Source: Mesonia sp. K7
GTDB taxonomy: Bacteria > Bacteroidota > Bacteroidia > Flavobacteriales > Flavobacteriaceae
NCBI RefSeq assembly: GCF_003233725.1
Contig: NZ_QKQV01000017.1
Location: forward strand, 1 to 42,205
Length of the DNA: 42,205 bases
Direction: 5' to 3'
Position numbers and translations under genes: made by a program. The notes below the pieces were generated by a model that did not search any database, was not told the DNA's origin, and was given only the letters and a program-made list of their open reading frames with translations. Of the stretch, positions 7,197 through 24,561 are shown piece by piece. Position 1 is the first letter of the stretch; each line of letters opens with the position of its first letter.

Positions 7197-7552
7197 TAAG
7201 AAATTATTCTTTTCACTCTTAGTAAAAGTTCATTAGGGCTAAAAGGTTTTGTAATAAAATCTTCTACCCCCAATTGAAAGGCATTCATGATTATTTCTTC
7301 CTGATTAGAAGTGCTCAATACGATGATAGGTAAATCATGATTTAGTTTTTTGATGTGTTCTATGAGTTCTGTTCCTGATATAAAAGGAAGCATTAAATCG
7401 GTAATGATTAAGTCAAATTGATCGGTTTCTATAATTCTTTTTGCTTCTCTACCATCAGATGCTGTAATGATACGATAGCCCATCTTACTTAATTTAAAAT
7501 CTAAAGCATTTGCCACCATGGGATTATCTTCTATGATTAAGATTTTTTTCAT
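7196..7552 (-). CDS. Single-domain response regulator (CheY-like)
   Basis: A 118-residue stand-alone receiver domain. The acidic pocket is E8-D9, the phosphorylation site is D52 in IITDLMLPF, followed by the Ser/Thr position in VLSTSN and the Lys in ITKPFSPNELL. No output domain is attached, so it must act by protein contact. Its start overlaps the end of the Hpt gene by 4 bases and its stop overlaps the HEAT-repeat gene start by 1 base. The likely path is kinase to Hpt to this receiver, then to the HEAT-repeat protein or glycosyltransferase. Confidence 0.93.
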   Translation of the reverse strand: MKKILIIEDNPMVANALDFKLSKMGYRIITASDGREAKRIIETDQFDLIITDLMLPFISGTELIEHIKKLNHDLPIIVLSTSNQEEIIMNAFQLGVEDFITKPFSPNELLLRVKRIIS

Positions 7553-8288: not shown

Positions 8289-11200
8289 TTAATGTCTTTT
8301 TTCTTCAAGGTATTTATGTGTGAGTGTCTCAAGTTCTTCATATCGGATAGGCTTTGTTAAATAATCATCCATCCCCGCTTTAAGACAAGTCTCTCTTTCC
8401 TCTTTAAAAACTCTTGCTGTCAAAGCTACAATAACAGTATGTTCATTTTCTTTTTCTAACTCTCTAATAATTTTAGTTGCTTCAATACCGCTAAGTTCTG
8501 GCATTTGAATATCCATGAAAATAAGGTCTATTTTATGTTTTTTGTAGGCTTCTACAGCTTCTTTACCATTGTTTGCTATGATAAGTTTTGCTTCGGGTAC
8601 AATTTTGCTTAACAATTCTTGAGCTAATAGTTGATTCACCGGGTTATCTTCAGCAATTAAAATATTAGTACTACGGTGTTTTGCCTCTTTTACTGAAACA
8701 TTTTTACCTGAATCATTTTCAAAATCAACTTCTATAGGCTCTTGTGGATCGATGACCTTTAGCAACTGTATTAAAGTAATTGGTTTGGTATGATGATGGT
8801 CTATTTTTAATTCTTCTACGGCCTTTCCTATCAATTGATCATCAGATGCACTATGAAGTAACATAATGCCTGTTTCTTTAGGAGTTAGGTTTAGGTTATT
8901 CCTCACATAAGCGATAAATTCTAACCCATCCATATAGGGCATATGGTAATCTACAATAAGCAAATCAAATTCTTGATTGTTTTTGAGAATTTCCATAGCT
9001 TCTATGGCGTTCTCTGCTAATTGACAAGAGCAATTGGCAATTTCCAGCATTCGTTTTAAAATCTTTCGGTTATTAGTGTTATCGTCGATTACCAAAATAT
9101 TGGAGTACTTCTTTGGCGCATTTAGTACCATTGCTGAATTTTGATAGCTATCAAAAGAAACTTTAAAAGAGAAGGTACTTCCAACGTTTAAGGTACTTGT
9201 TACTTCCAGCTTACTATCCATCAAGGCCAATAATTTGTTACTAATGGTTAAGCCTAATCCTGTTCCTCCATACTTTCTAGTGGTAGAGGCATCTTCTTGA
9301 TCAAAAGCACCAAATATTTTTTTAAGTTTGGTAGGAGCTATACCCACTCCTGTATCTCTCACTTTAAAAATAAAAGTTTCTTTATTCTTATTGGTATTTT
9401 CTTCTTTTTCTATACTTAATTCAATTTCTCCGTTGTCCGTAAATTTTACGGCATTACTCAGTAAGTTAGTCAGAATTTGCCTTAAGCGAATCGGATCTCC
9501 ATCGATGTATCTGTTAATGGTAGGATCTACATTTAGTAATAACTCTAAACCTTTTTCTTCTGCTTGGTGCTTGATGATATCGATCGTTTCTTTACACAAC
9601 TCAAACATATCTACTTTCTCTTTGTGAAGTTCTAATTTTCCTGCTTCAATTTTAGAAAAATCAAGAATATCATTGATAACGTCTAAAAGTAAATTGGCAG
9701 AATTGTTGACCGTCTTGAGGTATTCTGCTTGGCTTTTAGATAATGGTGTTTTGATCAATAAGTCTGTAAATCCTATAATCCCATTGAGAGGTGTTCTGAT
9801 TTCATGGCTCATATTTGCTAAGAACTCCGATTTAGATTTACTCGCAACTTCTGCTTGCTTCTTTGCTTTTAAAAGCGAAGTCTCATAGTTTTTCAGTCGT
9901 GTTATATCCTGAAAGATACCGTAAAGACGAGTACTTTTTTGCCCTACTTGCTCCGTACGACCAATGCTCCTTACCCATTTTTTTCTATTTTTGGCAGTAA
10001 TAATTTGTGCTTCTATATCAAAAGATTCGCCAGTTTCCAATGCTTTCTGTACATATTGGCTAATCAAAGGCCTGTCTTTCTTAACATAAAAATTGATGCC
10101 TTCTTCAAGGTTAGGTTCATAATCATCTTCTACGTCATGAATTTTTTTTGTAATTGGGCTCCAGTAAATCGACTGTTTTTCAATATCTAACTCCCAACTT
10201 CCAATCAGTGCAATCTCATTGGTCTGCTCGAGCATAGCTTGTAATCTTAAACGCTCCATCACACTTTCTTTAAACTGAGTGATATTAGCAGTATACATTA
10301 ATAAGCCCCCTATTTCGTTTTCATTTTTATACCAAGGCTTTACCTCCCATGTAATCCATTGTATAGAACCATCTTCGCGTTCGAACATGGCTTCATCACA
10401 AGAGTTAACGGCTCCTTGTAAGCATTCTTGATGAATTTTTTTCCAATCGTCGCCAATCTCAGGAAATACTTCATAATGCGATTTCCCAATTACATTTTTG
10501 GTAATGTGGTAATCTTCGAGCCACTTTTTAGAAGCGGCCATATAGACCATATTGGTATCAAACATAGCAATTGCAGAAGGAGCTTCGTCTATAAAAAGTT
10601 TGTTCTGATTGATGCTTTGCTGTAGTGTATTTTCAAATTCTTTTTGTGCGGTAATGTTCCAATTGGTGCCCAATACCCTTATGGCTTCTCCTGCTTCATT
10701 TTCTTGAACGAGCCCTTTTGCTCTTATATAATTTAAAGACCCATCGGGTAATATGATTCTAAAGTCTGTATCGTATTTTGTTTTATTTTTGATTACTTCT
10801 TTGAGTAAATCTTCTATACGCCCTACATCATCTTTATGAATTCGGCTTCGCCATGTTTGGTATAACTGCTCTTGGGGTTCTTCTTTTGAAATTTCATAGA
10901 GGTTATACATGGTATCGTCCCAAGTAAGTTTATTCTGTACGAAATCAAAATCCCATATTCCTACAATAGAAGCATCCAATGCAGCTTGTAGTTTATGTTT
11001 GGCAGCTTCAAAATTTGTTTCAGCATGTACTCTTCTAGAAATATCTCTAAAAGCAATTAGAATAACCAGCCCCTTATGGTTTTGAATAGAATTTAGAGTT
11101 ACTTCAATTGGAAATTCATCCCCATTTTTTCTTAAGCCTGTAATCTCTATACGTGAGGGAGACTGGACGTCTAGTTTGCTGTCTTTATGATTAGTAAGCT

Positions 11201-12984: not shown

Positions 12985-13407
12985 ATGGTGTCTTTTTCAA
13001 TCTAAAATTACTAATTTTTATTGATTCACTTGATAAGACATCAACATTTTAAAATTTTCTCTAGCACTAAACGCTGAGCAATTGCTGTGTAATTACTTAA
13101 CACTGAATCGACTTAAATAAGTGTAAAGAATGAAAAAAAAATTTTAGTATGGTAATTGTAGGATATTATCAGGTACAACTTACTTCCCGATACAGAAATT
13201 ATTATATCGCATTTTCTACGTGCTTATTCATAAGTAGTAACATATTTAGTAAAAATCACGTGTTTTATGTATTGATTTCTAATTTTTATTTTTACACCAT
13301 TTTTACGGTAAAATTCTTAATTCTATAAACTTTCTAAACTTATTTCATTTCTGCTATTTCAATTAAAATATGGAATGTTTGTTTTAAGTGTTTTTTAAAG
13401 TTAGTTT
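12985..13407. other. Gene-free stretch containing the left end of the mobile element
   Basis: Positions 12985-13180 are the upstream region of the LytTR operon; no perfect TAnnTTTG box is visible there. Positions 13181-13201 are the left att repeat. Positions 13202-13407 are very AT-rich and hold no convincing gene, only the small inverted repeat TTTTACGGTAAAA. No strong terminator follows the defence operon. Confidence 0.5.
13181..13201 (-). repeat. Left attachment repeat (copy of the mnmE 3' end)
   Basis: This 21-base segment matches 23165-23185 at 20 of 21 positions; the shared core begins TACTTCCCGATACA. Read on the minus strand it ends the codons for NFCIGK and a TAA stop, the same protein tail as the intact mnmE. 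The codons differ synonymously (TTC for TTT, TAA for TAG). This is what is expected of an element that carries its own copy of the gene end. Confidence 0.85.
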
Positions 13408-15750
13408 CTATATAAAACCTTTCATTCTAAAGCTTTTACTATATAAGTTGAACTTACCATATTTATATCTGATAAATTTGGAATACCTATCTTCATGGGT
13501 AGATATAATTATTTGCTGTTCAGAAAAATTATATTTTAGTAACTCAACAAGTGAATGTGAATTAATTTCATCTAAAGTTTGCAATGGATCATCAATTAGT
13601 ATAGTCCCAAGTTTGGAATGATTAAATACTTTATTCAATACTAACATTAAAGATATAACAGTAGCAGTTAACTGGCCTGAACTTAATGTATAAGTAACTT
13701 CTTGATCTCTGTAGGTTGGTCTTATGTATATTTGGGAAGCTCCTCTTTTCATTTCAAAGTCGATTACTAAACCAGACCCTAAACTGTGATTTTGAAGTAT
13801 TTTCCCTGTATAGATATAAAAAGGAATACTAATTTTTTCGATTATACTTTTAGTATAATTTTTAATTTTTTCGTCTAAAGTATTTCTAATTTTTAAGTAC
13901 TCCGAATATAAATTATCTAATTTTTGTTTTCTCCCCTCCAAATTATTAATATCCACGCTTATAGCATTGAAATATTGATACTTAATATAATCTCGTTTTT
14001 GTTTAATTTCGTCAAACGATAATTTGTTTAACTTCTCTAAATCATTATCGAAATAAAGATTAAAGTTTGTTATAATTTCATCAAAGTTTAAATTGGTTTC
14101 AATTACAGGTTTTTCTTTATCGATTAACTCTATAATATTTTCTTTTATTAAATCCTTATTTTCAATGTTTCTATGATTAATTTCTGAAATTATCTGATTT
14201 TTTACATTCTCATTAAATAACGATAAAAAAGATTCAAAACGACTTTTATAATTGGGTAAAACTTCTTTTAAACGTGAGAAAAATTCTGAATCTACTAATT
14301 TCGATGATTCAGTCTGTATGGATTCATTTTCTTCAACAATAAATGATTTAAAAGTTTCTAAATACCTTTTGTTTAAATCTTCTTTTGCTTTTTCAAACTT
14401 GATATTATCTTCATTATACTGCTTGAATATCTTTATTTCTGTTTCTTCTATTTGTTTTATAAGGTTCTGATTGTCCTGCCAATCAAAACCACAAACAGGG
14501 CACTCTCCCTCTTTTAAATCAATAAAATCTTTATGACCTGTATTCAGACTAATCAAAGATTCTCTTTTATCTTTTAAGTCAGATAATACTTGATTTTGGA
14601 GTGATAAAGACTTTCTAAATGTTAAAAGTATTTTTAGGTTAACCTCAAATGTCTCTATCTCTTTTTTAATTTTGTCTTTTTCTGATAAAAACTGAATGTT
14701 ATCTTCATTAATGAGTTCAGAATAATCATTGTCAGTAAATAGTTTTATAAATTTATTATTGGTTTCAGTAACCTTCCTAAAGTTTGTTTTCCTATTATAT
14801 TCAGCTTCTAAAAAATCAAAATTTTGAATACTCCAATAATAGTTGATGAACAAATCTATAAAATTAGAATCATTATTAAATTTATTCATTTTATCCAACT
14901 GAATAACATTTTCAATGGATTGTCTATTACTAAAAAGGACTTCAATTTTATTTATTTCATTTAGATGCGAATTATGAATATCAATATTTGTATTTCCAAT
15001 GACTTCATTATCCCATACAAGTTCATTTTGACTATTCTCAATTAGTTTTTTATATACTATTTCATTGAACTCACTTTGCAATAAGTCTGAATTGTTTTGT
15101 TTTAATTCATTGATTGAATTTTGAATTTGTCCTGTTTGTGAGTATATTTTGGTTAAAAAACTATCAACTTTTTCTAAAGATAATCTTTCTTCGTCGCCAC
15201 CTAAAAGTGATACCAATGATTTGTATCTTTCTTTTGGGTCTTCTTTTAAAAAATAGGTGTTTTCGTCCTGCTCAACGTAATTTAGTACATTAAATAAATT
15301 GTGGACATTTGGATAATCTAATATTTCTTCCAAATTACTCTCTGAACTAACTTCTTCATCATTAATAAACAATTTAGAATTAGGATATATTTGACTTATG
15401 TTATTCTTTTGAGATTTCCCAATTATTGCAGGAGGAAATGTTCTTTTTATTTTTATTCGCTGATTATCTGCTGAAACAAAACTTGCCGAAATCTCTATTT
15501 CTTCTTCTCCAACCTTATGTATTGGACTATTTTCATAAGTATATCTTTTATCTAAATTGACGCCATATATCTTTCTTGGAATTTTAGTTAAAAGTATTTC
15601 AAGGGCTTCAAATGATGTTGTCTTTCCATATCCATTTGGTCCATCAAACACAACTAAATTGTCTCCGCCAAAGTCAAAGTTAATGTCAGTAAAACACTTA
15701 AAATTTTTAATATTTAGTTCGGATATTTTATATTTCACCGTTGGTGTCAT
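13408..15750 (-). CDS. Lamassu LmuB-like / ABC-3C ATPase, SMC/Rad50-type with zinc hook
   Basis: A 780-residue ABC ATPase of the SMC/Rad50/RecN kind. Walker A is GPNGYGKT (37-44). Two long Glu/Lys/Asn-rich helical arms flank a zinc-hook CPVC at 417-420, almost exactly mid-protein as in Rad50. The signature motif is LSSGQ (689-693), Walker B is ILIDDP with D720 and D721, a D-loop QTLDE follows, and the H-loop is H752 in STHEDR. IDDP instead of a DE pair is usual in this defence branch. It is the third gene of a coupled operon, overlapping the middle gene by 23 bases. The likely role is to sense foreign DNA ends or structures and release the nuclease subunit. Generic Rad50-like repair is less likely, given the partners. 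Confidence 0.85.
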   Translation of the reverse strand: MTPTVKYKISELNIKNFKCFTDINFDFGGDNLVVFDGPNGYGKTTSFEALEILLTKIPRKIYGVNLDKRYTYENSPIHKVGEEEIEISASFVSADNQRIKIKRTFPPAIIGKSQKNNISQIYPNSKLFINDEEVSSESNLEEILDYPNVHNLFNVLNYVEQDENTYFLKEDPKERYKSLVSLLGGDEERLSLEKVDSFLTKIYSQTGQIQNSINELKQNNSDLLQSEFNEIVYKKLIENSQNELVWDNEVIGNTNIDIHNSHLNEINKIEVLFSNRQSIENVIQLDKMNKFNNDSNFIDLFINYYWSIQNFDFLEAEYNRKTNFRKVTETNNKFIKLFTDNDYSELINEDNIQFLSEKDKIKKEIETFEVNLKILLTFRKSLSLQNQVLSDLKDKRESLISLNTGHKDFIDLKEGECPVCGFDWQDNQNLIKQIEETEIKIFKQYNEDNIKFEKAKEDLNKRYLETFKSFIVEENESIQTESSKLVDSEFFSRLKEVLPNYKSRFESFLSLFNENVKNQIISEINHRNIENKDLIKENIIELIDKEKPVIETNLNFDEIITNFNLYFDNDLEKLNKLSFDEIKQKRDYIKYQYFNAISVDINNLEGRKQKLDNLYSEYLKIRNTLDEKIKNYTKSIIEKISIPFYIYTGKILQNHSLGSGLVIDFEMKRGASQIYIRPTYRDQEVTYTLSSGQLTATVISLMLVLNKVFNHSKLGTILIDDPLQTLDEINSHSLVELLKYNFSEQQIIISTHEDRYSKFIRYKYGKFNLYSKSFRMKGFI

Positions 15751-16441
15751 TGGTTAAGTTTTGTTGATTGATATATTCTTCAATATTTTGAAAACTATTA
15801 AAATCGTTATCTTTTATTGCATCTAACAAGTATTTTTCTCTAATGGACAATGACTCTTCAACAGCTAATGATAAATTTTCTAATGACTGATTGTCCTCTG
15901 TCGATTGATAATTTAAAAACGGAGTCTTTATGAAAATCCCCATTAAGACCCTATACCAACTCTCATCAGGTTTATCGAGCAAATCACTATTTTCAATTGA
16001 TATCTTGTTTAACTGACTAACTATTTCATCGGTTCTGTTTATTTTTTGTAATAAAACCTCAACATCGTTTTTAAAGTAAGGCAACACATATTTTTTTGCA
16101 TTTAAACTATTTTCTTCAACCTTATTTAGTTCTTTTCGTAATTCATCATTTTCATTTTCTAATTCCAATAAAAGTACAAGTGATAAATTGTGGTCAAGAT
16201 TTCTTTGTTTAAATTCAGACAGATTATCATCTTTTTTTAATTCAACAATAATTGTGTTTATTGTGTATTCTAAATCGACAATTTCATTATTATTAAGTTC
16301 TACAATTTCATTTTGGTTATAATACAGAAATATGAAAAAGTCATCTTTTTCTTCATAATAAGTAAAGTCAACTTTTGAATCTAATGAGATTAACTTTAAA
16401 TTATTTTCTTCAATTATTTTATTAATTATTGTCTTCATCAT
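15728..16441 (-). CDS. Small middle subunit of the Lamassu-like system (LmuC-like)
   Basis: A 237-residue acidic protein, between the nuclease candidate and the ATPase. It overlaps the first by 20 bases and the second by 23, so translation is probably coupled. A predicted coiled coil covers about residues 85-120 (ELENENDELRKELNKVEEN). The rest is mainly helical, with no enzyme motif. The start could be either of two adjacent ATG codons (16441 or 16438). Identification rests on position, size and partners, since middle subunits of Lamassu and ABC-three-component systems diverge fast. It would bridge the ATPase and the effector. Confidence 0.65.
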   Translation of the reverse strand: MMKTIINKIIEENNLKLISLDSKVDFTYYEEKDDFFIFLYYNQNEIVELNNNEIVDLEYTINTIIVELKKDDNLSEFKQRNLDHNLSLVLLLELENENDELRKELNKVEENSLNAKKYVLPYFKNDVEVLLQKINRTDEIVSQLNKISIENSDLLDKPDESWYRVLMGIFIKTPFLNYQSTEDNQSLENLSLAVEESLSIREKYLLDAIKDNDFNSFQNIEEYINQQNLTNDTNGEI

Positions 16442-17708
16442 TTAGTTCGTTTATGGACGTATCAATCGTTTTAAAACCAAAATAGTTAAAATCCTCAGCT
16501 TCATTTCCTCCATCTGTAATTTCCAATAACCTTGACTTTACTTCTTCTTTTTCTTTAGATAGACCTTTAGTAATGAAATAATCAATATCTTTAGTATTAG
16601 GGTTATTATAAATCATTTCACAATGTTTTTGGAACGCTTTTTTACCTGCTGTATCATTATCAAACTCATTGTTATGAATTAATAACTGATAACGATTTAG
16701 GTTTTCTCCATTGGTTTTTACATATTGTAACCTTTTATATATAGGATTAACTTTAATCCTTTTTATTCCCTTTAAAATAACGCTTTTTACTGTTTCATTA
16801 TCAATAAAACTACCATAAGTATTTCTTAAATTGTTGTTCTCTAATTTCTTATGTGGAGATAAATACGATTTGAGAAGATTAACCATATCAACATTACTCA
16901 AATTTTCAAATTCACATAGACTTTTTTGTATTTTATTATAAATCTCTAATTCTTCGGCATTGGTTAAATCATAATCATCAACTCCGTCTGAAATAGAGTT
17001 TAAGAAAATTTTGGTGATTTCAAACCAACATATTTCTTCTGTAAAAGAAATCGTAGAATCATTAATCCATTTTTTTATTGTATTTAGCTTTATTGATTCT
17101 TTTACTTTAGTTGAATGCCTTTTTTTAACTATATCACAAATCTTTTTACTACAATAACTTACTTTATCTTCTAAATCAGAGTCTATTAAGTTTGGGTTAT
17201 TTAAATATGCTCTAATTGAATCTTTTAGTTTTTGATTAATATTTTCTAAAGTATAAACTCCATCTATTGTATTAAAATAATTTGTATTTATCTGAAATCT
17301 TTTATTAAAAGTTGATAAATTTTTAGGGTAGTCGGTTATATTTTTATGTGTAATTAAACTGCATTTTATGGGCTTCTTTCTAACTCTAAGAGAGTAAGTA
17401 ATGATCTTTTTTCTATTATCAGTAAGATTAATTTTAGCACACTTTGAGTAATAATATTTATTAATCAATTCTTCTATAACAGGTCTATATTTACTTATTT
17501 TGGCGGAATCGTTACTCAAATAGGCTTTTACCTGAAAGACTTCAAAACAATCTGTTTTTAACGAAAAATCTTCGTCTTCCTCCAATTTCAAACAATAATT
17601 ATCAGGAATATCATCGCCTAAAGACACAATGGTTTCAATAGCCTTACACAAAGCTACTTCTCCTTGAAATATGTAACCAGACCAACTTGGTGTAGCATCT
17701 GTACTCAT
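16422..17708 (-). CDS. Cap4-like nuclease effector candidate of the Lamassu-like system (LmuA-like)
   Basis: A 428-residue protein, first of the operon. The N-terminus has the block WSGYIFQGEVAL (9-20), typical of Cap4/DUF4297 and ABC-3C effectors. An acidic patch (EEDED, 43-47) is followed by VFQVK (57-61). Together E43/E44, D47, Q59 and K61 resemble a PD-(D/E)xK nuclease active site, with Gln in place of the second acid as in many such enzymes. The remaining 350 residues are Asn/Lys/Ile-rich with no recognised domain and probably mediate assembly. By analogy with Lamassu and Vibrio DdmABC it would cut DNA when the ATPase detects an invader. A -7 box lies 18-25 bases upstream. Alternative: a related ABC-3C effector outside Lamassu proper. 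Confidence 0.75.
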   Translation of the reverse strand: MSTDATPSWSGYIFQGEVALCKAIETIVSLGDDIPDNYCLKLEEDEDFSLKTDCFEVFQVKAYLSNDSAKISKYRPVIEELINKYYYSKCAKINLTDNRKKIITYSLRVRKKPIKCSLITHKNITDYPKNLSTFNKRFQINTNYFNTIDGVYTLENINQKLKDSIRAYLNNPNLIDSDLEDKVSYCSKKICDIVKKRHSTKVKESIKLNTIKKWINDSTISFTEEICWFEITKIFLNSISDGVDDYDLTNAEELEIYNKIQKSLCEFENLSNVDMVNLLKSYLSPHKKLENNNLRNTYGSFIDNETVKSVILKGIKRIKVNPIYKRLQYVKTNGENLNRYQLLIHNNEFDNDTAGKKAFQKHCEMIYNNPNTKDIDYFITKGLSKEKEEVKSRLLEITDGGNEAEDFNYFGFKTIDTSINELNDEDNN

Positions 17709-17725
17709 TTATTAAAAGATTTATA

Positions 17726-17733
17726 CAAAAGTA
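17726..17733 (-). promoter_or_regulatory. -7 box of the Lamassu-like operon
   Basis: TACTTTTG on the minus strand, a full TAnnTTTG match, ending 17 bases before the ATG. It sits directly after a terminator, so the operon appears to be transcribed on its own. No clear -33 TTG is present. Confidence 0.6.
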
Positions 17734-17734
17734 A

Positions 17735-17764
17735 CATAAAAAAATCCTCATATAAAATGAGGAT
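17735..17764 (-). terminator. Terminator separating the lipoprotein gene from the defence operon
   Basis: An 8-bp stem ATCCTCAT / ATGAGGAT with a 5-base loop, followed on the minus strand by seven T. It lies 157 bases after the lipoprotein stop codon and immediately before the promoter of the defence operon. Confidence 0.75.
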
Positions 17765-17920
17765 ACTATATGTTGTTAGAAGTTAAAAATTAATCAAAAA
17801 ACTAATTCAATTAAGTGATTTCTTTTGTAATAAACACTTTATTTTATAGAGTTTTTATCTCTTTTATTGTAATTGATTCAGTTTTATATTTACACTCTCT
17901 TAAATCAAAATTCTAAGATA

Positions 17921-18475
17921 TTAATTTTTAGAGTTTTTTGGATTGAACAATTTATCCCACTGTTCTGTAACATTTATTTCTAATTTATAAGATTTCTGTT
18001 TATTATCATTCATTAAATCTTCTGTATCAAAAGTATAAACTGCTATAACTTTATCAATAGGATATTCATTCATTGTTTCTGGGATAAAATCAGAGGTTAA
18101 TTCTTTTAAACCCATTAAACTATTTTCTTCTGGTATTTCTCTTTTTTCTTGAGGTTTCCAGCCTTTTAAATTACTACCAAAGCTTGCACCGAATATTCTG
18201 ACACTCAGGTAATCATCTTCAACAATTCTTTTACCATTTGTCATCAAAAATTCAATGTCTATAGAAACATGGACTTTCTCAAAAAATACTTCTGAATCAT
18301 TTATAGAAATTCCTTTAAAATAATACTTGAGATGTTTATCCGAAGTATATTCAAAATGACTTTTTATTGTGTCTGTAATTTTAAAAGGGATAGACTCCTT
18401 TTTATCGTTTTTATTAGAGTTTTCACAACTCAATAGACAAATAGCTACGCAAAAGATTAAAAGTTTAATTTTCAT
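17921..18475 (-). CDS. Hypothetical lipoprotein carried by the element
   Basis: A 184-residue protein with a clear lipoprotein signal (MKIKLLIFCVAICLLSC), Cys17 as the lipid site, and an Asn/Lys/Asp-rich linker. The mature part mixes predicted strands (HLKYYFKGISINDSEVFFEKVHV) with charged loops; I do not recognise it. It lies between the structured RNA candidate upstream and the defence operon downstream, separated from the latter by a terminator, so it is probably independent cargo. A role in surface defence or in entry exclusion is only speculation. Confidence 0.7.
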   Translation of the reverse strand: MKIKLLIFCVAICLLSCENSNKNDKKESIPFKITDTIKSHFEYTSDKHLKYYFKGISINDSEVFFEKVHVSIDIEFLMTNGKRIVEDDYLSVRIFGASFGSNLKGWKPQEKREIPEENSLMGLKELTSDFIPETMNEYPIDKVIAVYTFDTEDLMNDNKQKSYKLEINVTEQWDKLFNPKNSKN

Positions 18476-18499
18476 ATTTAAAATTTTTTAATAAAAAAA

Positions 18500-18645
18500 C
18501 AGGCTCGGAACGTACATCCTTACCTGCCTTTGAGGGAGTCGAAGCCCTGTAGTACAAAGTAAAGCAACGCCCAAGCCCTTTCCGCTTGAGCATTTTGCTA
18601 AACTTTTTCTGTACTACTTTAGAATTTTCGACTTTTCAAAGGCAG
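18500..18645 (-). ncRNA. Structured RNA or folded DNA candidate, long imperfect inverted repeat
   Basis: Four nested stems can be read: CTGCCTTTGA with TCAAAGGCAG (18524-18533 / 18636-18645), AGTCGAA with TTCGACT (18537-18543 / 18627-18633), GTAGTACA with TGTACTAC (18549-18556 / 18610-18617), and AGCAA plus CAAGC with GCTTG plus TTGCT (18563-18576 / 18584-18599), capped by CCTTTCC. On the minus strand a further small hairpin (18500-18526, CAGG...CCTG) is followed by seven T, which looks like a terminator. This suggests a minus-strand RNA of about 150 bases, or an untranslated leader attenuating the lipoprotein gene. A folded single-strand recombination site is the other reading. No known RNA family is recognised. 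The rest of the gap to 18877 is AT-rich and empty. Confidence 0.5.
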
Positions 18646-18877
18646 AAAATAAGTTTGCTAAAATGCAATCTTAAATATGTTATGTTATTCCTTTTACCTT
18701 ATAATTATATATTTATTTAATTACGAAAATACCTACTTTACACTTACTCTGCAAATAATTTGTTATTACTTGCTTTTAAGAAAAAATATATTTTAGAAAC
18801 TCCAAGTTAATCTTTCTGAACAATAGAATTTTTCAACATTTAAATAATTAATACTTTAAAGGACCACTTTAACCTCG

Positions 18878-19147
18878 CTAATTGTAGGACAAATATTTAA
18901 CGGTTTTCTCCATTATATTTTTGTTGGAAATACGATTATTACTCAAAAGATAATTTTCTAAATCTTCTACTTTAAAATATATACATTTTCCTTTTGGTTT
19001 GTAGGAGGGTAATTCTTTTTCTCTTGCTAATCTTCTTACATAATGAATACTTAAACTTAAATAAATGGATGCCTCAAATGTATTTGCAAAACCTCTTAAT
19101 TTTATAATGTTTATAGTTTCTTCTAATGACAAATTTTGTTTGTTCAT
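18878..19147 (-). CDS. Excisionase-like helix-turn-helix protein
   Basis: An 89-residue small DNA-binding protein of the MerR-like HTH_17 / excisionase family. The helix-turn-helix covers about residues 18-45 (ANTFEASIYLSLSIHYVRRL), followed by a wing with YKPKGKCIYFKVEDLENYL, the usual pattern in which a Lys/Arg-rich hairpin leads to a final helix. Such proteins bend DNA at att sites and set integrase direction. It lies 112 bases downstream of the integrase on the same strand, which supports a role as recombination directionality factor. Confidence 0.82.
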   Translation of the reverse strand: MNKQNLSLEETINIIKLRGFANTFEASIYLSLSIHYVRRLAREKELPSYKPKGKCIYFKVEDLENYLLSNNRISNKNIMEKTVKYLSYN

Positions 19148-19259
19148 AATTGCTAAATTTTAAAATGATAACCATTGAGTTCGATTCTACGATTTTACGA
19201 TTACATCTCATAATTCAACATAGTTATGAAATAAGACAATTCAACTATTCTAAAATTTT

Positions 19260-20399
19260 TTATAGACCCAAAATGGGCATATTAGCTACTGCATCTATCT
19301 TTTTCTTATCAATAACTTTTGCGTATATTTCGGTAGTTTTTAAATGACGATGTCCTAATAGTTTACTCACTGTATAAATGTCTGTATCCATTGTTAATTG
19401 TAGTGTAGCAAATGTATGTCTTGCACAATGAAATGTGATATACTTTTCAACTCCAGCGCTCTCAACCCATTTTCTTAATATTTTGTTATGATAGGCACTA
19501 TATATTAAGTTTTCAAAAGCAAGGTCTTCATCATCTTTTCGTTCTCCCAAAATCTTTACTGCTTGTTCACTTATAGGAAGATATTCTATTCCTTTTGTTT
19601 TTTGTTGTTTAAACTTCAACATATAACCATTTTTGGAGTCATATGAAATATTTTTCCACTTTAACGCCTTTATATCTGAAAACCTTAATCCTGTCATAGC
19701 ACTAAACAAAAAAGCATCTTTCATTATTGGATAATCACATTCTGTTTTTACTAATTTTCGGAGTTCTTCAATTGTTAAATACTTTCGATCTGTTTCTTTT
19801 TCTTTTATTCCTTTAACTCTATTTACAGGGTTTTCAGCTATCAATTTATTATGGTATGCTTCTCTTAATGCAGCTCTTACTTTATTAAAATAAGATAACG
19901 CAGAGTTTTGAGATAACTTCCCTCCGTGTGAGGATATTTTAGAAGTCAAAAGGTAAATTTTAAAATTCTCTAAAAACAAATCATCAACTTTTGAGATTTG
20001 TATATCTTTTCCGTTACAAAATTTATGTAAATGCTTATAAGTACTCAACCAATTTCCCCAAGTTCCGGCACTTTCACTTTTCTTGTCAACCAATCTTTTA
20101 AAATACTCTAAAAAACCAATTTTACCATTTACGGAACTTATAAAACCGTGCTTTTTACTTTGGAAATTTAAAACCCTTTGTGCTCTTATTGCTTCTGCTA
20201 ATAATTCGGTTTCTTTATTATGTTCTTTTTCTATGAAATTTTTTGGCTTATCATATAGATATAATTTCAAAAACTCATAATGTCTTTTCTTTGTGTCTTT
20301 ATCGTGGTAAGTAAGATAAAGGCTGTTCATTTGTGGTTTTCCTTTTTCCAAACTTTTTTTAGAAGTCTTTCCTTTTCTTGTCATTAGGTAGATTTTCAT
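19260..20399 (-). CDS. int: Tyrosine recombinase / integrase
   Basis: A 379-residue site-specific recombinase of the phage integrase family, in the form common in Bacteroidota. An N-terminal Arm-DNA-like region (about 1-90) is followed by a SAM-like core-binding domain (about 100-190) and the catalytic domain (about 200-375). Catalytic residues are visible: R239 in TGLRFSD, H324 and R327 in HCARH, the HRH box near 350, and the nucleophile Y359 in EIYAKV. It probably catalyses integration and excision at the mnmE att repeats. An A/G-rich ribosome site (AAGAAGAAG) precedes the ATG. The gene is intact. Confidence 0.95.
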   Translation of the reverse strand: MKIYLMTRKGKTSKKSLEKGKPQMNSLYLTYHDKDTKKRHYEFLKLYLYDKPKNFIEKEHNKETELLAEAIRAQRVLNFQSKKHGFISSVNGKIGFLEYFKRLVDKKSESAGTWGNWLSTYKHLHKFCNGKDIQISKVDDLFLENFKIYLLTSKISSHGGKLSQNSALSYFNKVRAALREAYHNKLIAENPVNRVKGIKEKETDRKYLTIEELRKLVKTECDYPIMKDAFLFSAMTGLRFSDIKALKWKNISYDSKNGYMLKFKQQKTKGIEYLPISEQAVKILGERKDDEDLAFENLIYSAYHNKILRKWVESAGVEKYITFHCARHTFATLQLTMDTDIYTVSKLLGHRHLKTTEIYAKVIDKKKIDAVANMPILGL

Positions 20400-20528
20400 T
20401 GCTTCTTCTTTTGGTTACTAATCATAGTGTAACATTCACCCTAATTATTAACACAAGACAACAGAAAGCCTTATGAGTAAACCTAATGTTACTTTTCTTA
20501 TTTCAAAAATTACATTCTGAAATAAAAT

Positions 20529-20630
20529 ATAACATCACTGAACACATAGCTTATGATATGATAAATCAATTATTTTGAGATAACCTATATTTAAAGAACA
20601 GAAACCGTTAATAACATCAGATGATGTTAT
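20529..20630. repeat. ATAACATCA sites upstream of the integrase gene
   Basis: One copy of ATAACATCA lies at 20529-20537. A second begins at 20611 and is followed after GA by its inverted copy TGATGTTAT (20622-20630), forming a 20-base palindrome. The 283-base gap between the Rep-like gene and int contains nothing else I recognise. The palindrome has no T-run, so it is more likely an operator or a recombinase arm site than a terminator. Confidence 0.4.
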
Positions 20631-20682
20631 CATTTAGTAATAGTGTAATACAATGATAATTTCAAAAAGATAATATGCAGTA

Positions 20683-21351
20683 TTATTCTTTACCTTTTTT
20701 CTCTATTGGTTTTCTATCAAATTTTTTAGTGATTACTACTCTTTTTTTAAACTTATAACCTGAGAAAAGTTCATTCTTCTCTAAAAACTGATTGTCATAT
20801 AGTAATGTAGTATAATTACTGATACTGCTGGGGCTAATACGTAATCTTTCAGTTATATATTTTCTACTTGCAAAATATACTCTTTCTCCTTTACTCAATG
20901 AATTATACTCTCCCCATAACAATTTAGCTCCGCTCGGTAAGTCGCTATGGAAAACTTCAAAAGGAATAATTATAGCTCTCTCATTTGAAGAATCAATTGC
21001 TTCAAGTACTTCTTCGCTCAAAATATATCCTTTGGTTTGCTTCTCTATAAATGTGAGATATAATAAACTCTTTAGCGTTTTTGATACTGTATTCTCACTC
21101 AAAGATAAATATTTAGCTATACGTTTGTTACTCATCGAAACTGCTCCACCTATATGGTTCAATTTATAAATCAGTCCTAATATGATTTTTTCATTGTTGG
21201 TGATTTCTAACTCCAATATTTGTGAGGGTATCTCAATCATAAAGAATTCTCCTCTTTGTGTAGTTTCCCAATATTGATTTTCTATATTTTCAACATCGTT
21301 TCCGTTTTGTTGTAAAAATTCTGTGAACTTCAGTTTATTTCGTTTTTTCAT
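20683..21351 (-). CDS. Tandem winged-helix protein, Rep-like (replication initiator or regulator)
   Basis: A 222-residue protein with two consecutive winged-helix regions. The first (about 48-105) has ITNNEKIILGLIYKL, SMSNKRIAKYLSLSENTVSK and a Thr/Lys-rich wing, like HTH_36 domains of plasmid replication proteins. The second (about 125-195) repeats the layout with LPSGAKLLWGEYNSL and ASRKYITERLRISPSSIS. Two WH domains in tandem are the architecture of iteron-binding initiators of the Rep_3 kind. A -7 box at 21381-21388 and four iteron-like repeats at 21395-21479 lie directly upstream. It may therefore initiate replication and repress itself. A plain transcription regulator of the element is the alternative. 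Confidence 0.7.
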   Translation of the reverse strand: MKKRNKLKFTEFLQQNGNDVENIENQYWETTQRGEFFMIEIPSQILELEITNNEKIILGLIYKLNHIGGAVSMSNKRIAKYLSLSENTVSKTLKSLLYLTFIEKQTKGYILSEEVLEAIDSSNERAIIIPFEVFHSDLPSGAKLLWGEYNSLSKGERVYFASRKYITERLRISPSSISNYTTLLYDNQFLEKNELFSGYKFKKRVVITKKFDRKPIEKKGKE

Positions 21352-21380
21352 TATAAAGTATAAATCAAAGGTGTGCTACA

Positions 21381-21388
21381 CAAAAATA
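21381..21388 (-). promoter_or_regulatory. -7 box of the Rep-like gene
   Basis: TATTTTTG on the minus strand, a full TAnnTTTG match, about 30 bases before the start codon. The iteron-like repeats begin seven bases upstream and cover the expected -33 region, so a protein bound there would block this promoter. Confidence 0.55.
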
Positions 21389-21394
21389 CAAAAA

Positions 21395-21479
21395 ACTAAA
21401 CTTCATTTATCTAAATTACTAAACTTTAAAATTGAAAATAACAAACTTCAATCTTACAATTTACTAAACTTCATTATCT
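21395..21479. repeat. Four iteron-like direct repeats
   Basis: The motif ACTAAACTT starts at 21395, 21418 and 21463. A variant ACAAACTT starts at 21441. Spacing is 23, 23 and 22 bases, about two helical turns. Units 1 and 4 continue alike (CATTTATCT and CATTATCT). The array sits just upstream of the Rep-like gene and next to an AT-rich tract. Confidence 0.7.
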
Positions 21480-21491
21480 CAAAAACGGTAC

Positions 21492-21540
21492 TTATAATTA
21501 ATTATATAATTAATTAATACAATTAATAACTTAAATATAA
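21492..21540. other. AT-rich tract next to the iterons, possible DNA unwinding element
   Basis: Almost pure A/T, built of repeated TTAATTA and ATTAATTA units, so it is internally palindromic and easily melted. Its place beside the iterons fits an origin of replication. The region from there to 22008 has no gene and is AT-rich throughout. Confidence 0.45.
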
Positions 21541-21630
21541 CTAAAGTACTATGTCCTTTTTTATAAAAAAAGAACTAAAAAATATATTAGGGAAAACTAC
21601 GTTTTCCTATTTTCTGTTTTTTAATTGTTT

Positions 21631-21675
21631 TATTCAAAAGAGAAGTCATAGAAGTGTATTATTTCCTTTTGAATA
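21631..21675. repeat. Inverted repeat in the long non-coding stretch
   Basis: TATTCAAAAG at 21631-21640 is matched by CTTTTGAATA at 21666-21675 with a 25-base loop. It lies in the 699-base gene-free stretch 21352-22050, beyond the iteron region. It could be a regulatory site or a hairpin in the presumed origin. Confidence 0.4.
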
Positions 21676-21985
21676 ACTTAACTTATAGTAATTTTTATTT
21701 TAAAACTCATAGTCAATCAAAAAAACATTTACTCAATAAAAACAAAATAAATGCCTCAGAACATCATTTTTACTTTGTTGTACACATTTTCTATATTCTA
21801 TCGATAAATTAATCATTTAATAAAAAATAATCTTTATAAACCCGTAATATGATTTTTTATATTTTTTTGAAGAAGATTAATATAACACACTACAAATTTT
21901 GAAGAAAATCAAATAATTCTATTTTTAATATAGTAAAACTTTTTTAAAAAACAAATTGACCATAAAAGATTGTAAGTCATCTTTC

Positions 21986-22016
21986 TTGAAATAAGAGCAG
22001 CTTAGTTTTATTTTTG
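21986..22016 (+). promoter_or_regulatory. Promoter of the 121-residue unknown gene
   Basis: TTG at 21986-21988 and TATTTTTG at 22009-22016, with a 20-base spacer: a complete match to the Bacteroidota promoter pattern. The start codon follows about 34 bases downstream. Confidence 0.65.
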
Positions 22017-22050
22017 TATTATTAAAAATAAATATCAATTTAAAAATTTA

Positions 22051-22416
22051 ATGATTATGAAAGAACATTTTGTGAACCTACTTTACCAACAATTACGTCA
22101 AGAATATCTATTAAGCAGAGTATATATAGATTTTAGATTTGAAGAAGATGAAGACAAAGTGGAGGAAATTTATGTAGATAATTTGGGGGTAATACTTGAT
22201 ATGATAGGATACCCAAAAGATGATGAAACAGAACTATCAAGAGATTGGTTCTACCAAGAATTTACAGAAACACCTGTTGTAAATTTAGAGAATTTAAATA
22301 AATACCTTCATTGGGTGTGTGAAGAAACAGCTAAATGCTGCAAAGAAAATAATTTAGCAATAAATGATTTTTTGAACTCCTTAATTAGAGAATACAGACA
22401 ACCTCAAACTCTTTAG
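22051..22416 (+). CDS. Unknown small acidic protein of the element
   Basis: A 121-residue protein, the only plus-strand gene in the element. It is rich in Asp and Glu (RFEEDEDKVEEIYVDN), mostly helical in appearance, with two Cys-containing segments near residue 90-97 (WVCEETAKCC) and no signal peptide or membrane segment. The start could also be the third codon (ATG at 22057). It has its own good promoter and a terminator, so it is a real, independently expressed gene. I do not recognise the family; such acidic proteins in mobile elements can be DNA mimics or regulators, but nothing here shows that. Confidence 0.7.
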   Translation: MIMKEHFVNLLYQQLRQEYLLSRVYIDFRFEEDEDKVEEIYVDNLGVILDMIGYPKDDETELSRDWFYQEFTETPVVNLENLNKYLHWVCEETAKCCKENNLAINDFLNSLIREYRQPQTL

Positions 22417-22515
22417 AACAAAAATATTTAAAGCTGATTTTATTTGCTGTCATGTATTGTAAAATATTATGTAGAAGATCGATATCTCACTTGAACATAT
22501 AAAGCAGTATTCCAG

Positions 22516-22552
22516 AACACCTCTTTTAAAGTTTAGTGAGGTGTTTTATTTT
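22516..22552 (+). terminator. Terminator of the 121-residue unknown gene
   Basis: Stem AACACCTC / GAGGTGTT (22516-22523 / 22538-22545) followed by a T-rich tail. It lies 100 bases after the stop codon, between two convergent genes. Confidence 0.7.
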
Positions 22553-22564
22553 TAATAAGTTTTC

Positions 22565-22897
22565 TCATAAAATTTTAATTAAATCAGACTTTAAAAACAA
22601 AAATCTTTTTTTTAGACAAATGTAATTAAGTCTATTTTCTTTGATTTTTCTTCTCAAAATATTTTCTGAAATTTCAAAGAAAATAACTGATTCTTTAACA
22701 GACAAATAGTGTTTATTTTGTAAATACTCTTTGGTAATAATTGGTTTTTCCTTTGTGAGAACAACTGAGTTTTGTTTTTGTTGTAGCCTCCATTTTTTCT
22801 TAAAACATTTTTTAGAACAATAGATTCCTTTACTACTTTTTGCAATAAAATCTTTGTTACATTCTGTACATTTTCGTTTGATTGTTAAATGGCTCAT
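22565..22897 (-). CDS. Zinc-ribbon plus excisionase-like HTH protein
   Basis: A 110-residue protein with two parts. Residues 8-40 hold a treble-clef or zinc-ribbon pattern: C10 and C13 in CTEC, then YCSKKC. Residues 60-110 resemble an HTH_17 / excisionase domain (YLSVKESVIFFEISENILRR) with the characteristic hairpin and final helix. It is the gene nearest the right end of the element. It could be a second directionality factor or a regulator of the element. The combination of the two domains in so small a protein is uncommon. The gene convergently faces the 121-residue gene. Confidence 0.65.
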   Translation of the reverse strand: MSHLTIKRKCTECNKDFIAKSSKGIYCSKKCFKKKWRLQQKQNSVVLTKEKPIITKEYLQNKHYLSVKESVIFFEISENILRRKIKENRLNYICLKKRFLFLKSDLIKIL

Positions 22898-23163
22898 TTT
22901 ACAAATTTTGTTTGTGTTACTCCTTTGAAAACCTTTACAGATACTGATAAAACGAAAAAGAAAGTAACTTTCTACTGTTTATAAGAGTTTCCGTATTAGA
23001 GTATCATAAAATTCATAAAAATTATCCGTTTTAAAAACTTAGTATCACAATTAGTAACATAAAAATGATAAATAAGGGTAAACAAAGTTCTCTATCAGCT
23101 CACCATAAATCCTTTGTAATCAGCGCGTTTTATGTAAGAATATAGTGTTTTGATAGCGTTAGT

Positions 23164-24561
23164 CTACTTCCCGATACAAAAATTAGCAAAGATGTTTCCT
23201 AGCAAATCATCAGAAGTGATTTCGCCTGTAATCTCACCAAAGTGATACAAAGCCTGACGGATATCTATCGCCAACAAATCGCCCGTCAAGCCCATATCGA
23301 TTCCTTCTTGTACTTTATTGATTTCGGCTTGTGCCTTGAGCAATGCATCGTAATGACGCGAATTGGTCACAATGGTGTCGTTGTTTTTTAAAGCACCCGT
23401 ATTGACAAAAGATAGCAACGTATTTTTCAAACTATCAACACCTATATTTTGTTTAGCAGAAATTGCTTCTAACTTAAAATATGGGGTTTCTATTTGTTTG
23501 AAAGACTCCAATTGTTGTTCTTCTAACAAATCAACTTTGTTGAGCACCACAATTAATGGTTTTTGTGGGTACTTATTTTTTATCTTTTCAATTTCAACTT
23601 GAAACTTTGAACTTGGAACTTTAAACTCTTTTGCATTGAGCAAAAGAATAACCACTTGTGCCTGCTCTATTTTTTCAAAGGTTTTTTTGATGCCCAAACC
23701 TTCTATCACATCTTGGGTTTCGCGAATTCCGGCAGTATCGATAAAACGGAAGCCTACCCCGCCAATCGAAATCTCATCTTCTATGGTATCTCTCGTTGTT
23801 CCAGCAATATCACTTACAATAGCTCTTTCTTCGTTAAGTAAAGCGTTCAGCAAAGTAGATTTTCCCACATTGGGCTCACCAACAATCGCCACTGGAATTC
23901 CGTTTTTAATCACATTTCCTACCGCAAACGAATCGATAAGGTTTTTAAGTAATTTACTGATTTTTATAATCAATGCCTGAAACTCTTCCCGATTGGCAAA
24001 CTCTACGTCTTCTTCGGCAAAATCAAGTTCGAGTTCGATGAGCGAAGCAAAATTTAGCAATTCCTCTCTTAACTTTTTGATTTCGGAAGCAAAACCGCCA
24101 CGCATTTGTTGCATCGCCAACTGATGACTTGCCGCATTATCACTGGCAATGAGGTCGGCTACCGCTTCTGCTTGACTTAAATCCATCTTTCCGTTCAGGA
24201 AAGCTCGAAGGGTAAATTCGCCTGGATTTGCAGCCCGACAACCTTGTTTCAACAACAAATTGATAATTTCCTGCTGTATATAAGCACTTCCGTGACAGGA
24301 AATTTCTACGGTATTTTCGCCTGTATAGGATTTCTTTCTTCTAAAAACAGATACCAAAGACTCATCGATAATTCTGTTGCCATCTTTTAGGTAACCCAAT
24401 TGTAACGTATGCGATTTTTGTTCGGTGAGTTTGATGTTTTGCCTTCCTTCAAAAACCGTAGAAGTAAAATTGATCGCATGGGGTCCAGAAACTCTTATCA
24501 CAGCTATCGCTCCGTTTCCGGGTGCTGTTGCCAAAGCTACAATGGTGTCGTCTAAAATCAT
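23164..24561 (-). CDS. mnmE: MnmE, tRNA modification GTPase
   Basis: A 465-residue GTPase (also TrmE) that with MnmG makes 5-carboxymethylaminomethyluridine at the wobble position of certain tRNAs. The N-terminal formyl-THF-binding domain starts with DTIVALATAPGNGAIAVIRVSG as its first conserved block. The G domain has GEPNVGKS (228-235), GTTRDT, DTAG and NKVD. The C-terminus ends FCIGK, the conserved catalytic-Cys tail with C462. The protein is full length. The mobile element starts within its last codons: the right att repeat covers NFCIGK. A -7 box ends 4 bases before the ATG, so the mRNA may be leaderless. Confidence 0.97.
   Translation of the reverse strand: MILDDTIVALATAPGNGAIAVIRVSGPHAINFTSTVFEGRQNIKLTEQKSHTLQLGYLKDGNRIIDESLVSVFRRKKSYTGENTVEISCHGSAYIQQEIINLLLKQGCRAANPGEFTLRAFLNGKMDLSQAEAVADLIASDNAASHQLAMQQMRGGFASEIKKLREELLNFASLIELELDFAEEDVEFANREEFQALIIKISKLLKNLIDSFAVGNVIKNGIPVAIVGEPNVGKSTLLNALLNEERAIVSDIAGTTRDTIEDEISIGGVGFRFIDTAGIRETQDVIEGLGIKKTFEKIEQAQVVILLLNAKEFKVPSSKFQVEIEKIKNKYPQKPLIVVLNKVDLLEEQQLESFKQIETPYFKLEAISAKQNIGVDSLKNTLLSFVNTGALKNNDTIVTNSRHYDALLKAQAEINKVQEGIDMGLTGDLLAIDIRQALYHFGEITGEITSDDLLGNIFANFCIGK
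23165..23185 (-). repeat. Right attachment repeat, within the end of mnmE
   Basis: Partner of 13181-13201 with 20 of 21 identical bases. It covers the last codons and most of the stop codon of mnmE. Recombination at this site leaves the gene's protein sequence unchanged. Confidence 0.85.

Follow-up and report, generated by a model that had tools for sequence, protein, structure and literature searches.

A probable integrative element of 9,984 bp in the 3' end of mnmE in Mesonia sp. K7, carrying an ABC-3C/Lamassu-like operon

The window analysed here, a stretch of 42,205 nucleotides from Mesonia sp. K7, contains at the 3' end of mnmE a run of genes bounded by two 21-base repeats that are identical at 20 of 21 positions and whose starts lie 9,984 bp apart (Table 1). 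Read on the minus strand, both repeats encode NFCIGK followed by a stop, with two synonymous differences (TTT/TTC and TAG/TAA). A preliminary description of the sequence had reported this repeat pair and its reading, as well as the AT-rich composition and the integrase, excisionase-like and accessory genes of the segment in between, and all of these points were confirmed when the repeats were recomputed and re-read and the segment was examined in GC windows and with family profiles. The GC content is 0.23-0.29 at positions 13001-23000 as against 0.306-0.388 in the remaining 1-kb windows. Only two places in the 2.55-Mb genome of the strain match the 21-base pattern with up to three mismatches, and a reversed control of the pattern gave no match in the same genome; the 18-base mnmE tail, when sought on the other strand of the 23-kb stretch, has no match with fewer than six mismatches. 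The genome has a single mnmE, the repeat copy at 23165 being the true end of a complete MnmE that is 71% identical to the MnmE of Flavobacterium taihuense. The TAG stop on the mnmE side is probably derived from the element, because a Campbell-type reaction puts the 3'-core difference of the element on that side, and the far copy, with its TAA at 13180, would then represent the displaced old end of the host mnmE. A similar argument on repeat origin appears, in the portion of the source used here, for the repeats of SGI1 (PMC2297512).

Table 1. Genes and sequence features at the mnmE locus (positions in the window)
Feature	Position	Strand	Evidence
Far repeat copy, element boundary	13181..13201	-	Own-genome pattern search
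SMC/Rad50-like ATPase, LmuB-like, 780 aa	13408..15750	-	PADLOC LmuB 1.5e-56; AAA_23
Middle-component-like protein, 237 aa	15728..16441	-	PF20289 (MComp1) 25.2 bits, just below cut-off 27.3
ABC-3C protein with C-terminal domain CTD1, 428 aa	16422..17708	-	PF20276 46.4 bits (cut-off 25)
Putative lipoprotein, 184 aa	17921..18475	-	Signal judged by eye; no significant family match
Strong non-coding hairpin between xis and cargo	18490..18690	-	Fold z-score -5.3 for 18480-18700
Excisionase-family (Xis-like) protein, 89 aa	18878..19147	-	HTH_17; TIGR01764 above cut-off
Tyrosine integrase, 379 aa	19260..20399	-	Pfam Arm-DNA-bind_5, Phage_int_SAM_5, Phage_integrase
Rep-like protein, 222 aa	20683..21351	-	HTH_36 and RepL above Pfam cut-offs; replication-initiation PHROGs
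Four iteron-like 15-mers	21390..21472	-	5' ends 21472, 21449, 21427, 21404; spacing 22-23 bp
Protein without family match, 121 aa; 40% identical relative in L024	22051..22416	+	Pfam, NCBIfam, PHROGs
Zinc-finger/Xis-like HTH protein (ZnF-HTH), 110 aa, first gene behind mnmE	22565..22897	-	Cysteines, weak Foldseek matches
mnmE-side repeat copy, end of mnmE	23165..23185	-	Own-genome pattern search
mnmE, complete host gene, 465 aa	23164..24561	-	TIGR00450 407.5 bits (cut-off 252.6)

The reading frames of the integrase, Xis and Rep genes are complete. The integrase carries R239, K267, H324, R327, H350 and Y359, which we take to be its catalytic residues, and its Phage_int_SAM_5 and Arm-DNA-bind_5 domains are typical of Bacteroidota integrases. 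Searches of the nine larger element ORFs with Pfam and NCBIfam returned no conjugation, mobilisation, relaxase, capsid or packaging family, and the six element ORFs scanned with PHROGs returned no conjugation, mobilisation, capsid, packaging or other phage structural family. The Rep-like protein found no match on plasmids and its structure model was poor (mean pLDDT 36). The hairpin between xis and the cargo matched no Rfam family at E 1 and no plasmid; its matches in three of 198 other family genomes span 27-49 bases in unlike folds, and neither L023 nor L024, two related loci described below, has a hairpin of equal strength. It could be an origin, a transfer structure or a regulatory structure.

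At the distal side of the element, the three overlapping genes of positions 13408-17708 form an ABC-3C/Lamassu-like operon, in which an LmuB-like ATPase and a CTD1 protein occur together as in Lamassu and ABC-3C systems, alongside a candidate middle component (MComp1-like, just below the profile cut-off). It departs from Lamassu proper in that the LmuA and LmuC profiles found no match at E 0.1, and ABC-3C is thus the safer name. The 428-aa CTD1 protein is the presumed effector of an operon that most likely serves, to judge from its protein families, in defence against phages or plasmids. Relatives of this protein occur in two of 249 family genomes, that of Mesonia sp. K7 included, the other one being 34% identical (1e-8); it matched nothing on plasmids or viral contigs and no solved structure.

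The same backbone recurs with other cargo. In L023, from F. taihuense, the gene order is the same, with identities of 70% for ZnF-HTH, 76% for Rep, 76% for the integrase and 60% for Xis, and mnmE-end sequences lie at 7398 and 15622. L024 encodes relatives of ZnF-HTH (68%), Rep (38%), integrase (77%) and Xis (61%) and has one mnmE-end sequence near its far end. This locus is a contig of a metagenome-assembled genome labelled Sericytochromatia that carries a Flavobacterium-like element, and the contig has probably been misbinned. L023 carries a DUF4365 protein as cargo, L024 an Eco57I-type methylase together with an HATPase protein; of these three, only the methylase was matched by PADLOC. The best explanation of these differences is that the cargo between xis and the far repeat can be exchanged.

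The 15-mers upstream of rep, which resemble GAAGTTTAGTAATTT, are shared with L023 as well. With up to four mismatches allowed, the 208-bp upstream region holds five matches, a number reached by none of 5000 mononucleotide shuffles; since the motif was picked from the tested region itself, stronger evidence comes from L023, where four 15-mers in the equivalent place (8881-8962) are spaced 22, 22 and 23 bp apart. No such array is present in L024, where Rep, at about 40% identity, is encoded in the opposite orientation. An iteron origin of replication in front of rep is the natural reading of this arrangement, and the excised circle would probably replicate from the four iterons, to which the Rep-like protein of the element would bind.

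In the F. taihuense genome (G016), mnmE occupies positions 60463-61848 of contig C56, and the mnmE-tail pattern is found on one strand of that contig at 61834 (mnmE itself), 190449, 250009 and 258233, with a fifth match on the reverse strand of contig C24. Within about 0.55 kb of each of the four C56 tails a ZnF-HTH gene begins, and behind three of the four lies an integrase of the family, none being seen behind the tail at 190449 in the approximately 3.5 kb read. The element in the window has its relative in the interval 250009-258233, which is preceded by intervals of 129 kb and 60 kb. C56 thus displays four mnmE ends in series over some 196 kb (L023, L074-L077).

The preliminary description had proposed searching other genomes for the integrase next to mnmE. 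Members of its family lie there in five of 15 congeners and, among 395 genomes sampled from the phylum, in at least 23. In the five congeners (G004, G005, G012, G014 and G015), a ZnF-HTH gene and an integrase 48-50% identical to that of the window follow mnmE, with 580-596 bp separating the mnmE end from the start of the integrase gene, and the loci continue as larger stretches, with DUF6617 among their genes, that we presume to be ICE-like. No second repeat was found within the 19.3-19.7 kb or so read in these five. In a sixth congener, G001, there is a ZnF-HTH gene along with an integrase fragment, and a second mnmE end follows 2.8 kb further on. The 2.8-kb stretch between the two mnmE ends of G001 (L049) encodes a Fic-family protein besides the integrase fragment; TTAAGCTT comes after its far end, just as it does in the congener elements, a hint of a second element. 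Elsewhere in the genome of Mesonia sp. K7, at positions 273594-274682 of contig C22 (G000; L019, L078), lies a second integrase of the family, 46-47% identical. The genes of the larger stretch that holds it are similar to those found in the congener mnmE elements; no mnmE-type ZnF-HTH gene adjoins it, the 10 kb read contain no mnmE end, and G003 and G010 have near copies.

The phylum sample was even and comprised 395 genomes, 52 of which encode an integrase matching the family profile at a cut-off of 1e-70. Among the 34 of these integrases that were placed (the remaining 18 stand outside the count), 22 lie within 2.8 kb behind mnmE (for G265 and G256, the placement was made solely from the tail sequence of mnmE) and 12 elsewhere. 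The figure of at least 23 occupied sites includes the window and G580, whose fragmentary integrase falls below the cut-off. Behind mnmE in G469, G541, G279 and G306 there is no more than a ZnF-HTH gene or fragment, and the integrase of G576 carries two stops. On a tree of 53 integrases (33 from mnmE sites and 20 others, after exclusion of three truncated rows), the mnmE label changes eight times as against 16.3 times for shuffled labels, none of 500 shuffles being as low, and it is found on both sides of the midpoint root. As far as the tree indicates, mnmE targeting is clustered and has switched several times, with long branches making the details unsure.

The company kept by these integrases varies. 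An iteron-type Rep accompanies the integrase behind mnmE in the window and, within the array, in L023; Phage_CRI (G2P-type) proteins do so in G486 and, weakly, in G419, in G526 the integrase is found with Toprim and DUF5906/VapE-like proteins, and in the congeners it is part of the larger stretches described above. Some 6-10.5 kb behind mnmE, G419 (L117) encodes a DRT2-like reverse transcriptase, ThsB-like TIR proteins and a caspase, a defence-like cluster that we infer to be part of its mnmE element.

The ZnF-HTH protein has four cysteines that are invariant in 12 aligned rows and an AlphaFold model with a pLDDT of 85 and a pTM of 0.50. Its best Foldseek match by E-value was the transcription factor PF0095 (E 0.013), followed by Tn916 Xis, BldC, RacA and Pukovnik Xis (probability 0.97-0.99, E 0.04-0.2), with no match below E 0.001; among PHROGs, an HNH-endonuclease profile matches the region around the cysteines (1.6e-5). 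We hypothesise that the protein may play an accessory role in recombination. The gene is present, between mnmE and the integrase, in 16 of the 23 occupied mnmE sites and missing from seven (G419, G486, G533, G526, G485, G265 and G256), and eight integrases adjoin a ZnF-HTH gene with no mnmE end in the stretch read (L195-L202 and L208, from G143, G411, G545, G526, G553 and G469). ZnF-HTH was accordingly rejected as a strict mark of mnmE targeting, for which it is neither necessary nor exclusive.

An empty site in a relative, the check that the preliminary description had proposed, came to light for a different member of the family, in another genus. In G486, mnmE and a far copy of its end with three mismatches enclose an element of 5.84 kb, and the genes past this element match, in order, those directly behind mnmE in the congeneric G365 (identities of 67, 85, 87, 77, 79 and 88%, with one 255-aa gene lacking a match); the junction is not base-perfect because the intergenic DNA has diverged. 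Comparison of six flanks (those of the window, G001, G419, G486, G526 and F. taihuense) with 28 genomes, nine of them congeners, yielded no element-free partner for five of the six, the window included, whose flank gave only partial kinase matches of 27-40% identity. The more specific expectation that the LytTR operon would directly follow mnmE in relatives free of the element was not borne out: LytTR homologues are present in seven of 15 congeners and in none of them behind mnmE, in stretches of 3-19.7 kb read per genome that were cut short by contig ends in G003 and G001. At 1e-40, a LytTR homologue was found in 27 of 60 genomes, that of Mesonia sp. K7 included. A second repeat with at most two mismatches occurs at three of 40 loci read behind mnmE (the window, G001 and G526) and one with exactly three mismatches at another four (G013, G419, G486 and G545), the best matches of an opposite-strand control having 4-8 mismatches. 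The second repeats of G013 and G545 are probably due to chance, and gene order backs only that of G486.

Taken together, these observations make it very probable that the 9,984 bp between the repeats are a site-specific element whose integrase would join a circle to the last codons of mnmE and which carries swappable cargo, here an ABC-3C/Lamassu-like operon. The proposal that an integrative element occupies the 3' end of mnmE thereby gains support from relatives that share the backbone, from integrases behind mnmE in other genomes and from the G486/G365 pair, and we favour it because the repeat is unique, integrase, Xis and Rep families are present, the iterons recur in L023, relatives carry other cargo, LmuB and ABC-3C profiles match, and the G486/G365 comparison, the F. 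taihuense series and the integrase tree all point the same way. Counting against it are the absence of LytTR behind mnmE in every congener read, the five of six flanks with no element-free partner, the lack of a second repeat in the stretches read of the five congeners, the lack of LmuA and LmuC matches, and an iteron motif that was picked from its own region and is missing from L024. While the anatomy of the locus and its relatives are observed, we infer the recombination reaction, movement, replication and defence. The tyrosine integrase would recombine the circular form with the last codons of mnmE, the displaced host end then marking the far boundary, and MnmE would stay intact because the element brings a synonymous copy of the end codons. 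The Xis-like protein, perhaps together with ZnF-HTH, would drive excision. Given that no relaxase or conjugation gene was recognised, transfer might depend on a helper, either another element or a phage, or else on the uptake of DNA.

That the repeats reflect coincidence or a local rearrangement with no element involved is very improbable: an empty site for the window locus was indeed not found, yet the 21-base pattern matches only two places in 2.55 Mb, and the composition, the integrase and the family behind mnmE in other genomes contradict such an origin. We think it unlikely, if a good deal less so, that the locus is a decayed and immobile remnant, a former integrative element now fixed as a defence locus and unable to excise. 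The two bases at which the repeats differ, the lack of recognised transfer genes and degraded relatives such as the integrase fragment of G001 and the integrase of G576 with its two stops would fit this scenario, against which stand the complete integrase, Xis and Rep frames with the expected residues and the synonymous nature of the repeat differences. Somewhat less likely still is that the locus is not plasmid-like at all and represents a phage satellite, or what is left of a prophage, dependent on a helper phage for its movement. The size of the element, its gene order and its defence cargo are, we assume, similar to those of phage satellites, the Rep-like protein matches replication-initiation PHROGs, and G526 has Toprim and DUF5906/VapE-like genes at the same site; what speaks against a satellite is the absence of packaging, capsid and structural families from the nine ORFs searched with Pfam and NCBIfam and the six scanned with PHROGs, and the iterons in front of a RepL-like gene, which are more plasmid-like. 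As for the imperfect repeats invoked for a remnant, those of SGI1 differ too, according to the part of that report drawn upon here (PMC2297512).

An element of this kind at this site has precedents in Gammaproteobacteria, where SGI1 and MGIVchHai6 use the same target; the kind is therefore already known. In the portions of the literature consulted, SGI1/MGIVchHai6-like islands have a tyrosine integrase and Xis and integrate at the last 18 bp of trmE/thdF with restoration of the gene end (PMC2297512, PMC7449626), SGI1 forms tandem arrays (PMC2297512) and MGIVchHai6-like islands carry phage-resistance cargo (PMC7449626). The element of Mesonia sp. K7 and its relatives resemble them in the trmE (= mnmE) target, the integrase and Xis pair, tandem integration and putative phage-resistance cargo. 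The gammaproteobacterial islands differ in being, by the same partial accounts, mobilised by IncC plasmids, functions of which none was recognised in the nine ORFs searched here. The integrase of the window has the Bacteroidota-type domains Phage_int_SAM_5 and Arm-DNA-bind_5, and its established link to SGI1 is the shared target. Closer by phylum are the Bacteroidetes integrative mobilisable elements (IMEs) Tn4399, Tn4555, NBU1 and NBU2, likewise small integrated elements in need of a helper, which encode their own relaxases, of the MobP type in the excerpt used (PMC5704250), where none was recognised in the element of the window; the trmE entries in the same excerpt of this IME survey are from Salmonella and Vibrio. 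The 10K genomic island of Riemerella anatipestifer shares the size of 10 kb, the tyrosine integrase and the direct repeats and differs in its Arg-tRNA gene site and 53-bp repeat, as given in the part of the report available (PMC6764341). Among the papers listed by searches of the open-licence literature, we recognised no description of a Bacteroidota mnmE island, nor of the lineage, its modularity or its ZnF-HTH partner.

We tentatively put forward, as a conjecture that is more likely wrong than right, that Bacteroidota have their own mnmE-targeting module, an integrase often paired with ZnF-HTH, which has been adopted by very different elements (iteron replicons, G2P-type elements, elements with primase/DUF5906 genes and larger ones) that stack serially at one core gene with varied defence cargo. 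Read-through from mnmE could then drive the partner gene and tie excision to mnmE expression. The F. taihuense series offers a natural array for studying such accretion, and in ZnF-HTH it is possible to name a specific candidate recombination factor. In this phylum, the final 18 bases of one core gene constitute a searchable hotspot, as trmE does for SGI1-type islands in Gammaproteobacteria, and reading behind mnmE may give quick access to defence-like cargo such as the ABC-3C operon of Mesonia sp. K7 and the G419 cluster.
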